From: an uncultured Verrucomicrobia subdivision 3 bacterium
GTDB lineage: Bacteria > Verrucomicrobiota > Verrucomicrobiia > Limisphaerales > UBA11358
Direction of reading: 5' to 3'
Length of the DNA: 64,000 bases
Assembly: GCA_903865745.1 (NCBI GenBank)
Contig: CAIPKV010000078.1
Coordinates: 1-64,000, forward strand
Below are positions 36,207-39,284 of this stretch, one piece after another. The position numbers and the translations under genes are program-made. The notes below the pieces were generated by a model. That model was not told where the DNA came from. It searched no databases and saw nothing but the letters and a program-made list of their open reading frames with translations. The stretch's first letter is position 1, and every line of letters begins with the position of its first letter.

Positions 36207-37424
36207 ATGGCATTGATTGTCCAGAAATACGGCGGCACATCGGTCGGCAACACCGACCGCATCAAGAACGTTGCCAGGCGCGTGGCGGAATACCGCGCGA
36301 AAGGCGACTCCGTGGTCGTCGTCGTCTCGGCGATGAGCGGCGTGACGGATGGCTTAATTAAGCTGGCCAAAGATATCGCGCCCCTGCCCAGCGAACGCGA
36401 GATGGACATGCTCCTCGCCACCGGCGAACAGCAGACCATTGCGCTCACGGCCATCGCGCTGCACACCCTCGGCATTCCCGCCGTGTCCATGACGGGCGCG
36501 CAGGCGGGCATCGTCACCGATGGCGTCCACACCAAGGCGAAGATTCACAACATCACGCCGAAGCAGGTTCACACCGCGCTCAACGCCGGCAACGTGGTGA
36601 TCGTCGCTGGTTTCCAAGGCGAGACGTCGGAAGGCCAGATCACCACGCTCGGTCGTGGGGGTTCGGATCTCACGGCCATCGCGCTCGCCGCCGCGCTCAA
36701 GGCGGATCTCTGCCAGATTTATACGGATGTGGACGGCGTTTACACGACCGATCCGCGCATCGTGCCGACCGCAAAGAAGCTGTCGGAGATTTCCTACGAC
36801 GAAATGCTCGAGCTCGCCAGCCTCGGTGCCAAGGTGATGCAAAGCCGTTCAGTTGAATTTGCCAAGAAGTTTGGCGTGGTGTTTGAAGTCCGCTCCAGCC
36901 TCAACGACAACCCCGGAACTATTGTGAAAGAAGAAACGAAAAGCATGGAAGGCGTCGTCGTCCGCGGCGTCGCGCTCGACAAAAATCAGGCCAAGGTCAC
37001 GCTCGTGGGCGTGCCCGACCGCCCCGGCGTGGCCGCGAAGATCTTTAAGGCGCTCGGCAATGCGACCGTGAACGTGGACATGATTGTTCAGAACATCAGC
37101 CACGGCACGGGCACCCCGGCCACGGATATTTCGTTCACCGCCGACAAGCCGGACCTGCTCAAGGCGCAGAAGGTCATCGAAGGTTTGAAGACCGAAGTCG
37201 GCTATCGCGAAGTCATCACCGCCGAGAAGATTGGCAAGCTGTCCATCGTCGGCGTCGGCATGAAGTCGCACACCGGCGTGGCGGGCAAACTGTTCGAGAC
37301 GCTCGCGAACGAAGGCATCAACATCGACATGATTTCGACGAGCGAAATCAAGATCTCCGTCGTCATCGACCTCGCGAAGGGCGAGCAGGCGGTGAAGGCC
37401 GTGCACGCCGCGTTCATTGGCTGA
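36207..37424 (+). CDS. lysC: Aspartate kinase
   Basis: This 405-residue enzyme phosphorylates aspartate, the first step to Lys, Thr and Met. N-terminal kinase motif VQKYGGTSVGNTDRIKNVAR and FQGETSEGQITTLGRGGSDL with YTDVDGVYTTDPR are typical. Two ACT domains occupy the last 150 residues (KVTLVGVPDRPGVAAKIF and KLSIVGVGMKSHTGVAGKLF), so allosteric feedback is likely. It ends 3 bp before the leuA leader promoter. Confidence 0.95.
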   Translation: MALIVQKYGGTSVGNTDRIKNVARRVAEYRAKGDSVVVVVSAMSGVTDGLIKLAKDIAPLPSEREMDMLLATGEQQTIALTAIALHTLGIPAVSMTGAQAGIVTDGVHTKAKIHNITPKQVHTALNAGNVVIVAGFQGETSEGQITTLGRGGSDLTAIALAAALKADLCQIYTDVDGVYTTDPRIVPTAKKLSEISYDEMLELASLGAKVMQSRSVEFAKKFGVVFEVRSSLNDNPGTIVKEETKSMEGVVVRGVALDKNQAKVTLVGVPDRPGVAAKIFKALGNATVNVDMIVQNISHGTGTPATDISFTADKPDLLKAQKVIEGLKTEVGYREVITAEKIGKLSIVGVGMKSHTGVAGKLFETLANEGINIDMISTSEIKISVVIDLAKGEQAVKAVHAAFIG

Positions 37425-37426
37425 AC

Positions 37427-37454
37427 TTGACCGGGCGCATTGCCGGCGTATGAT
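37427..37454 (+). promoter_or_regulatory. Promoter of the leuA leader
   Basis: TTGACC (37427-37432) and TATGAT (37449-37454) are separated by 16 bp, a near-consensus sigma-70-type promoter. Transcription should begin near 37461, only about three bases before the leader-peptide ATG at 37464, so the leader would be almost leaderless. Confidence 0.7.
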
Positions 37455-37463
37455 TAAACCAAC

Positions 37464-37529
37464 ATGAATCGCAATCTGAACCTGCTGCTGACGAGCGCGC
37501 TGCTAACCGGCGCGGCGGTTGGGTTTTGA
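37464..37529 (+). CDS. leuL: leuA leader peptide
   Basis: This 21-codon ORF, MNRNLNLLLTSALLTGAAVGF, has six leucine codons in 21 (residues 5, 7, 8, 9, 13, 14). It lies between a strong promoter and an intrinsic terminator directly upstream of leuA. Starved for Leu-tRNA, a ribosome would stall within its first half; otherwise it runs to the TGA at 37527-37529 and covers the antiterminator arm. No Shine-Dalgarno sequence precedes it, in keeping with a transcript that starts next to its ATG. Confidence 0.8.
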   Translation: MNRNLNLLLTSALLTGAAVGF

Positions 37530-37584
37530 TTCGTTCACAAACTTTATCAAACCCACTGCCGAGACGGCGGTGGGTTTTTTGTTT
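37513..37584 (+). terminator. leuA transcription attenuator
   Basis: The terminator stem CCCACTGCCG/CGGCGGTGGG (37552-37561 with 37565-37574, loop AGA, one G-U) is followed by TTTTTTG. The alternative helix pairs CGGCGGTTGGGTTT (37513-37526, the end of the leader peptide) with AAACCCACTGCCG (37549-37561), with one bulge and one G-U. The two helices share the same 37552-37561 arm, so they are mutually exclusive, as in classical amino-acid attenuators. Confidence 0.85.
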
Positions 37585-37628: not shown

Positions 37629-39284
37629 ATGCATCCAGACCCCTCCAAGAAATATCGTGCGTTCCCGCCCGTCCACTTGCCCGACCGCCAGTGGCCCAAC
37701 CGCGTGCTCACCGCCGCGCCGCGCTGGTGCAGCGTCGATTTGCGCGATGGCAACCAGGCCCTCGCCGTGCCGATGAATGTTTCGCAGAAGCTGGAGTTGT
37801 TCCAAACCCTCGTGAAGATCGGCTTCAAGGAAATCGAAGTCGGCTTTCCCTCCGCGTCGAACACGGAGTTCACGTTCAATCGCCGGCTCATCGAGGAGAA
37901 ACGCGCCCCAGACGATGTCTGGCTCCAAGTGCTCGTGCAGGCGCGCGAAGATTTGATTGAGCGCACCGTCGAGTCGTTGATTGGCGCGAAGAAGGTCATC
38001 ATTCACATGTATAACTCGACTTCGCCGGCGCAGCGTCGCGTCGTGTTCGGCAAGTCGAAGGACGAGATCAAGGCCATCGCCGTGAATGGCGCGAAGATGA
38101 TCAAAGACCGTTTGCACCGGCTCAAGGGCACAGAGGTCATGCTCCAGTATTCGCCGGAAAGTTTCAGCATGACGGAAGTGGAATACGCCAAAGAGATTTC
38201 CGAGGCGGTCATGGACGTGTGGCAGCCGACGCCGCAGCATAAGATGATTTTGAATTTGCCGGACACGGTCGAAGTTGCGATGCCGAATGTTTACGCGGAT
38301 CAAATCGAGTGGATTTGTAAGAATATTAAGCACCGCGACTCGCTCATCATCAGCTTGCACACGCACAACGACCGCTGCACCGGCGTTGCTGCGACCGAAC
38401 TCGGTCTGCTCGCGGGCGCCGACCGCGTCGAGGGCACGCTCTTCGGCAATGGCGAGCGCACGGGCAATCTCGACCTCGTCACCGTGGCGTTGAATCTCTA
38501 CATGCACGGCATTCATCCGAAGTTGGATTTCTCCAATCTCGCCGCCATCATTGATGTCTACGAGCGCAGCACGGGCATGACGGTGCCGCCGCGCCAGCCT
38601 TACGCGGGTGAGCTCGTATTCACGGCCTTCAGCGGTTCGCATCAGGACGCCATCAAGAAAGGTCTGGCCGAGCGCGAAAAAATTCCCGGCGCGCACTGGG
38701 ATGTGCCGTACCTCACGATTGATCCGGCGGACATCGGGCGCGAATATCGCGAGGTCATCCGCGTCAATTCGCAATCCGGCAAGGGCGGCGTCGCCTATCT
38801 GCTCGAAAGCGAGTTCGGCATCGAATTGCCCAAGGACATGCAACGCGAGTTCGGCCCCATCGCCAACGACGCGGTGGACAAGCTCGGCCGCGAAGTGAGC
38901 GGTGCAGAACTCAAGGCGATGTTCTGGCAAGAATATGTCGAGCGCATCACGCCGTGGTCGCTCAAGGGCTTTGAGACGGAGAGCAAAAACGGCGTTGTCA
39001 AATGCCGCGCCCAGCTCTTGCGCAACGGTCAGGCCGTTGAGTTCAAGGGCGAAGGCAATGGCCCGCTCGCCGCGCTCGTGCACGGCTTCACCACGGCGGG
39101 AGTGCCGCGCTTCGAAATCACCAACTACAGCGAACACGCCTTGAGTTCCGGCGAAACGGCGGCGGCGATTTCCTACATCCAGATCAAGACCGCCGATGGC
39201 CAGACCCGCTGGGGCGCCGGCGTGGATACGAACATCGAGCTCGCCTCGGTGCGCGCCGTCCTGAGCGCGTTGAACCGCCTCTAA
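37629..39284 (+). CDS. leuA: 2-isopropylmalate synthase
   Basis: This 551-residue enzyme condenses acetyl-CoA with 2-oxoisovalerate, the committed step of leucine synthesis. The HMGL-like barrel shows RWCSVDLRDGNQALAVPM, FKEIEVGFPSAS, LHTHNDRCTGVAATELGLLA with metal-binding His residues and GNGERTGNLDLV. The C-terminal LeuA allosteric domain ends near EGNGPLAALVHGF. The length and start fit the yeast-type (LeuA2) subfamily. Expression is predicted to be controlled by the upstream leader peptide and attenuator. Confidence 0.95.
   Translation: MHPDPSKKYRAFPPVHLPDRQWPNRVLTAAPRWCSVDLRDGNQALAVPMNVSQKLELFQTLVKIGFKEIEVGFPSASNTEFTFNRRLIEEKRAPDDVWLQVLVQAREDLIERTVESLIGAKKVIIHMYNSTSPAQRRVVFGKSKDEIKAIAVNGAKMIKDRLHRLKGTEVMLQYSPESFSMTEVEYAKEISEAVMDVWQPTPQHKMILNLPDTVEVAMPNVYADQIEWICKNIKHRDSLIISLHTHNDRCTGVAATELGLLAGADRVEGTLFGNGERTGNLDLVTVALNLYMHGIHPKLDFSNLAAIIDVYERSTGMTVPPRQPYAGELVFTAFSGSHQDAIKKGLAEREKIPGAHWDVPYLTIDPADIGREYREVIRVNSQSGKGGVAYLLESEFGIELPKDMQREFGPIANDAVDKLGREVSGAELKAMFWQEYVERITPWSLKGFETESKNGVVKCRAQLLRNGQAVEFKGEGNGPLAALVHGFTTAGVPRFEITNYSEHALSSGETAAAISYIQIKTADGQTRWGAGVDTNIELASVRAVLSALNRL

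Follow-up and report, generated by a model that had tools for sequence, protein, structure and literature searches.

A conserved, probably leucine-sensing transcription attenuator of leuA with a predicted near-leaderless leader peptide in Verrucomicrobiota

The leuA locus

Two plus-strand genes are separated by a 204-bp gap in the window, by which the whole 64,000-nucleotide stretch of DNA analysed is meant: lysC, encoding aspartate kinase (36207–37424, with its stop codon at 37422–37424), and leuA, encoding 2-isopropylmalate synthase (37629–39284; TIGR00970 at 722 bits, above cut-off, and NF002991 also above cut-off). The whole element described here sits inside this gap, with lysC upstream and outside the switch, and with 44 bp between the end of the terminator and the start of leuA. 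The nearest named relatives of the source genome are metagenome-assembled genomes of Limisphaerales / Verrucomicrobia subdivision 3, by which the genome is placed in Limisphaerales (Verrucomicrobiota), and leuA of the same type is present in most of 59 related genomes. The same genome encodes a second LeuA-like protein (G000:C37:11182-12687, minus strand), which is 27% identical to the LeuA of the window.

Parts of the leader element

All parts of the element lie on the plus strand. The −35 hexamer, TTGACC (37427–37432), begins 2 nt after the lysC stop codon, and its TTGAC is kept upstream of the leader in relatives; after a 16-nt spacer it is followed by the −10 hexamer, TATGAT (37449–37454), whose position relative to the start codon is also conserved. 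Between the −10 hexamer and the ATG (37464) stands TAAACCAAC, and the leader peptide ORF (37464–37529) then encodes MNRNLNLLLTSALLTGAAVGF in 21 codons and a stop codon, with six Leu codons (five CTG and one CTA) at residues 5, 7, 8, 9, 13 and 14. The 5′ segment of this ORF, from the start codon to Leu7 (37464–37485), has complementarity to arm 2 and to the post-stop spacer and is a candidate protector or anti-antiterminator, weak in the window and strong in relatives such as locus L030. Further inside the ORF lie a 7-bp hairpin, P1 (37496–37514, CGCGCTG-CTAAC-CGGCGCG), found in the RNAalifold consensus, and, at the 3′ end, antiterminator arm 2 (37514–37526, GGCGGT-U-GGGTTT), with its partner at 37549–37560. 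The stop codon is followed by a spacer (37530–37548) and by a 13-bp terminator hairpin (37549–37577), the 5′ arm of which (37549–37560) doubles as antiterminator arm 3, and finally by a U-tract read from the sequence (37578–37584). The leader fold exceeds chance expectation (z −4.9). An earlier note on this DNA had described a promoter, a six-Leu peptide, an antiterminator and a terminator in 37427–37584, with the antiterminator arm supplied by the leader ORF itself; all of these are present, arm 2 does lie inside the ORF, and its pairing is conserved in relatives.

Conservation before leuA

The comparison took in the sequence preceding leuA at every locus retrieved and yielded 46 distinct leaders, the window included, so that the same element is found before leuA in 45 further distinct relatives across Limisphaerales. 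Every leader has at least four Leu codons, with a mean of 6.1 Leu in 21.8 amino acids, and the common features are a Leu-rich peptide that closes with (A)AVGF or a variant of it, then a stop codon, a spacer and a terminator of the form CCCACTGCC..GGCGGTGGG. In the 46 leaders, the codons clustered in the short ORF before leuA specify the amino acid that this gene serves to make, and an intrinsic terminator, a 13-bp stem with a U-tract, stands between the leader ORF and the structural gene. A lysC homologue was detected at only nine of the 46 loci, which indicates that the element travels with leuA. In four loci (L012, L014, L026 and L045) repeat-like DNA of 100–200 nt (CACGAATGAACACGAATAGACACGAAT...) lies between the terminator and leuA.

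Among the other Verrucomicrobiota scanned, nearly all Opitutus-like loci are without any Leu leader, while Verrucomicrobiaceae (L061–L065, L093) have a different Leu leader without this terminator. That leader, MTPPATALLLLSLRLTLG followed by a stop codon, lies about 160–180 nt before leuA in L061, L063, L065 and L093, and in the same four loci it is followed by a near-identical stretch, GGTAGGCGGCCCGCGTTTCCTCGTCATGC, with no intrinsic terminator.

Promoter position and the predicted leaderless start

In an unrestricted promoter scan covering 0–99 nt upstream of the start codon, the best sigma-70-type promoter ends 6–7 nt ahead of the ATG or GTG in 41 of the 46 leaders, and in 44 the distance is 6–10 nt. 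With transcription starting 7 nt after the −10 hexamer, +1 would coincide with the start codon's first base or precede it by at most 3 nt. In the window the spacing from the −10 hexamer to the ATG is 9 nt, at the long end of the range and a slight outlier, and together with the 16-nt promoter spacer it is less ideal than in relatives; the promoter position accordingly places the predicted +1 at A37461, 3 nt before the ATG, which agrees with the earlier note, while a predicted distance of 0 nt is the conserved state in relatives. The position of the consensus hexamers thus strongly predicts a near-leaderless start that is conserved and not accidental.

An attenuator with an ordinary 5′UTR, transcribed from a start further upstream, would be the main alternative. 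It draws on the fact that the promoter match of the window, taken alone, is no better than chance (one found against 0.9 expected in shuffles of a 3.5-kb region), and on read-through from lysC, which would give long 5′ ends, but it leaves unexplained why the promoter keeps a distance of 6–7 nt to the start codon in 41 of the 46 leaders, although their upstream genes differ, and why the ilvB leaders described below have it at 7–10 nt. We consider such an upstream start improbable.

The start codons of the 46 leaders are 37 GTG and nine ATG with no TTG, a count in which TTG was allowed by only one of the two finders. A missing Shine-Dalgarno sequence was considered as a sign of leaderless translation and dropped, as the lineage hardly uses such sequences: SD-like motifs precede three of 37 long ORFs of the window and two of the 46 leuA starts, no more than background (8.6%). 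In the source genome as a whole, the pattern of a promoter, 6–7 nt and RTG occurs 30 times, against eight in a reversed control. A gene for a protein of 115 amino acids (MLEVQYYRTAAGACPVEEFLDSL...) is present there in two near-identical copies (G000:C5:41697-41735 minus and G000:C73:30967-31004 minus; L127, L149), both with closely similar promoters 6–8 nt before the ATG, and is apparently leaderless. In mycobacteria, leaderless genes as a rule begin with ATG or GTG, and these two codons are translated equally well when 5′-terminal, which is not the case in E. coli (PMC4633059). As E. coli ribosomes use GTG leaderless starts poorly (PMC4633059), the competence of Verrucomicrobiota to initiate on them is assumed here.

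Mutually exclusive RNA pairings

Four pairings can be drawn: the ORF-internal hairpin, the antiterminator, the terminator, and a helix between the 5′ end and the post-stop spacer. The ORF-internal hairpin joins 37496–37502 with 37508–37514, and 92% of its cells are paired across 42 leaders, against 15–64% in slid controls. The antiterminator joins 37514–37519 and 37521–37526 with 37549–37560, leaving U37520 as a single bulged base; pairing is kept at 96% in the outer half of the helix and 82% in the inner half, the arm 2:arm 3 duplex has a mean of −21.0 kcal/mol against −12.0 (sd 0.47) for shuffled arms, and own partners beat between-species swaps in 5000 of 5000 permutations. In the terminator, 94% of cells are paired across 42 leaders. 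Position 37557 is U in the window and in most relatives and forms a U-G wobble in the terminator, whereas its equivalent pairs with an A of arm 2 in 19 relatives, as expected of a strand that serves two partners.

The fourth helix would form between the post-stop spacer and the first 22 nt, which contain the start codon (−7.6 against −4.8 kcal/mol, sd 0.32, for shuffled sequences), and only 10 of 5000 partner swaps do as well as the own partner; since these permutation tests treat the leaders without correction for relatedness, they give moderate evidence for a real helix. The best case is L030, where 13 base pairs follow one another without a break and both paired segments have departed from the consensus of the family. 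This pairing competes with the antiterminator, while the ORF-internal hairpin and the antiterminator can coexist, as only base 37514 is common to both. The design had been described in the earlier note as minimal and composed of two helices, a description that is incomplete because it omits the ORF-internal hairpin and the probable 5′-end helix; judged from these pairings, the element would be of the usual protector, antiterminator and terminator type, with a protector that is weak in the window itself.

The antiterminator and the terminator are mutually exclusive, and a ribosome at the stop codon would cover one antiterminator arm. The distance from the stop codon to the conserved CCC core of arm 3, 20–27 nt in 44 relatives, leaves arm 3 free while a ribosome occupies the stop codon.

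An alternative in which the leader peptide, or the act of translating it, acts on leuA translation or on Rho, the hairpin pairings being secondary, has a precedent in what is suspected for the Actinobacterial LEU element: the leuA leaders there are leaderless, have no terminators and follow another mechanism. The strong U-tract terminator and the conserved, exclusive antiterminator of the leaders examined here make this alternative very unlikely. Also very unlikely is that the hairpin is merely the lysC terminator and the Leu-rich ORF a chance reading: the lysC stop codon does lie just before the −35 hexamer on the same strand, but the same leader stands before leuA where no lysC was found nearby, and the ORF, its Leu codons, the stop position and the antiterminator arm are all conserved.

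Modelled switching

Ribosome positions were compared in a folding model in which the nascent leader extends to the end of arm 3 and the ribosome footprint is masked (44 leaders). With a ribosome at the first Leu cluster, constrained folding gives an antiterminator probability above 0.7 in 37 of the 44 leaders, and with a ribosome at the stop codon the antiterminator is absent in 43. A ribosome at the last Leu codon gives a mixed result (mean antiterminator probability 0.33), so the sensor in this model is probably the first Leu cluster. When no ribosome is present, the mean antiterminator probability is 0.40, and in the window it is 0.99 at equilibrium, before arm 4 is made; basal termination without translation would therefore need kinetic trapping of the 5′ hairpin in the window, whose 1:2 hairpin has −28.8 kcal/mol before arm 3 appears.

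Proposed mechanism

The element is very probably a leucine-sensing, ribosome-mediated transcription attenuator of leuA with a leaderless or near-leaderless leader peptide. The leucine attenuator proposed in the earlier note is supported by its anatomy, its conservation with leuA, the exclusive pairings, the spacing and the modelled folding, and from these we infer the start site, the translation of the leader and the response to leucine. In the proposed mechanism, RNA polymerase would start 0–3 nt before the leader start codon and a ribosome would load onto the 5′ end of the nascent RNA. When charged tRNA-Leu is plentiful, the ribosome would reach the stop codon and cover antiterminator arm 2, which ends the ORF, allowing the terminator at 37549–37577 to form and turning leuA off. 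When charged tRNA-Leu is short, the ribosome would stall at Leu codons 5–9, and arm 2, left free, would pair with the 5′ arm of the terminator, so that transcription enters leuA. Without translation, the 5′ segment could engage arm 2 together with the post-stop spacer, which would favour termination. The ORF-internal hairpin is probably a pause hairpin, keeping polymerase and ribosome in step. A further role of the terminator may be to end transcripts of lysC. Translation of a leaderless leader should depend on RNA made from the leader's own promoter, and RNA that enters from lysC is therefore predicted to terminate at any leucine level.

A second attenuator and a wider pattern

In front of ilvB, the same genome carries a second near-leaderless attenuator candidate (G000 contig C67:2538-2576, minus strand; L144, L156). 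Its leader, which is one of the 30 promoter, 6–7 nt and RTG matches, has the same layout as the leuA leader: a Val-rich peptide with five consecutive Val codons (MLKNVTQAVSLVVVVVGDAVGAC, followed by a stop codon) and then a terminator. Counting 27 relatives, there are 28 ilvB leaders, in which peptide, terminator and antiterminator are kept, with an antiterminator at −18.3 against −9.3 when shuffled, and a spacing from the −10 hexamer to the start codon of mostly 7–10 nt. An AVG motif closes both the leuA and the ilvB leader peptides, and in each case its codons make up the antiterminator arm, suggesting a common design or origin. A third leader copy was looked for in the genome and discarded: the sole other terminator of the same sequence type (contig C68) follows an ordinary gene, without a leader.

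At leuA loci of other phyla, the best promoter lies 5–8 nt before the ATG in 16 of 25 ORFs with a Leu run and in eight of 92 other short ORFs from these same regions (Fisher p 4e-8), and for strong promoters only the contrast is 12 of 18 against 0 of 11; the cases include Treponema, Pirellula, Halomonadaceae and Betaproteobacteria, and the loci are few and partly related. Leaderless Leu leaders may thus be common across phyla, which we offer as a lead and not as a result. In the leuA leaders of these four groups, the ATG stands 6–8 nt after a −10 element at L092, L098, L099, L101, L102, L106, L108, L110, L112, L118, L119, L121 and L123. Two betaproteobacterial loci (L109, L113) carry, 408 nt before leuA, an extra ORF that contains Leu and Pro and has its ATG 6 nt from a strong promoter, as well as a Leu-rich ORF nearer leuA. 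We lean slightly against the broader proposal that attenuators for branched-chain amino acids widely use leaderless initiation as a design favoured by selection, so that it would be no local oddity; the reason for such a design would perhaps be the guaranteed, immediate loading of a ribosome and a switch that is deaf to read-through transcripts.

If the proposed mechanism is true, leaderless attenuators extend to Verrucomicrobiota with a conserved GTG start, which in turn suggests that Verrucomicrobiota translate leaderless GUG messages. The leuA and ilvB leaders would then be two independent switches in one genome for testing leaderless initiation.

Comparison with known systems

The enterobacterial leu attenuator (Rfam Leu_leader) works through Leu codons and a protector, antiterminator and terminator, behind an ordinary 5′UTR. 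The codons and the logic are the same here, but an Rfam covariance-model scan of the element gave no match at the gathering score, be it to Leu_leader, T-box or other Rfam cis-regulatory families, and only unrelated matches below it. Literature searches on attenuation, leader peptides and leaderless transcripts in Verrucomicrobiota turned up no described attenuator, and the element is well supported as a well-conserved new example of a known switch type, in a phylum for which no described case was found. The earlier note had called a leaderless attenuator design unusual, which does not hold, as attenuator leaders that are leaderless or have a 1-nt 5′UTR are already documented in Corynebacterium glutamicum ilvBNC, Streptomyces lividans leuL, C. 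diphtheriae ilvB and Sinorhizobium meliloti trpL.

The Actinobacterial LEU element shares a uORF with Leu codons before leuA, but it is a pseudoknot in which the Leu run pairs to the leuA Shine-Dalgarno box (PMC1262725), whereas the element described here has an intrinsic terminator and an antiterminator, and 44 of the 46 leuA starts are without an SD-like motif, which sets it apart from that class. In S. lividans, LeuL1 (before leuA) and LeuL2 (before leuS) are short, Leu-rich leaderless leader peptides mapped by RNA-seq, of which LeuL2 likewise has an intrinsic terminator while LeuL1 is without one (PMC8079986); their peptide sequences are unrelated to the leader here. The ilvB leader of C. 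diphtheriae is leaderless by RNA mapping (PMC5784534), as is S. meliloti trpL (rnTrpL), whose RNA begins with the ATG of the leader ORF (PMC7298713, PMC10117765). The trpL system also attenuates through ribosome stalling, with trpL translation seen by Ribo-seq (PMC7298713, PMC10117765), and differs in its Trp codons, its target trpE(G) and its alphaproteobacterial host. In C. glutamicum ilvBNC, transcription starts one nucleotide before the leader start codon and of the three hairpins formed, the first masks the start codon (PMC11857589). Regulatory codons and an intrinsic terminator, together with a near-leaderless start and a start-shielding anti-antiterminator hairpin that are both predicted here, liken this IlvL system (PMC11857589) to the leader described here, which differs in that it precedes leuA and not ilvB, has Leu codons only in place of mixed branched-chain amino-acid codons, belongs to Verrucomicrobiota and not to an Actinobacterium, mostly starts with GTG in relatives where IlvL has ATG, and is predicted from sequence where ilvBNC has been tested experimentally.
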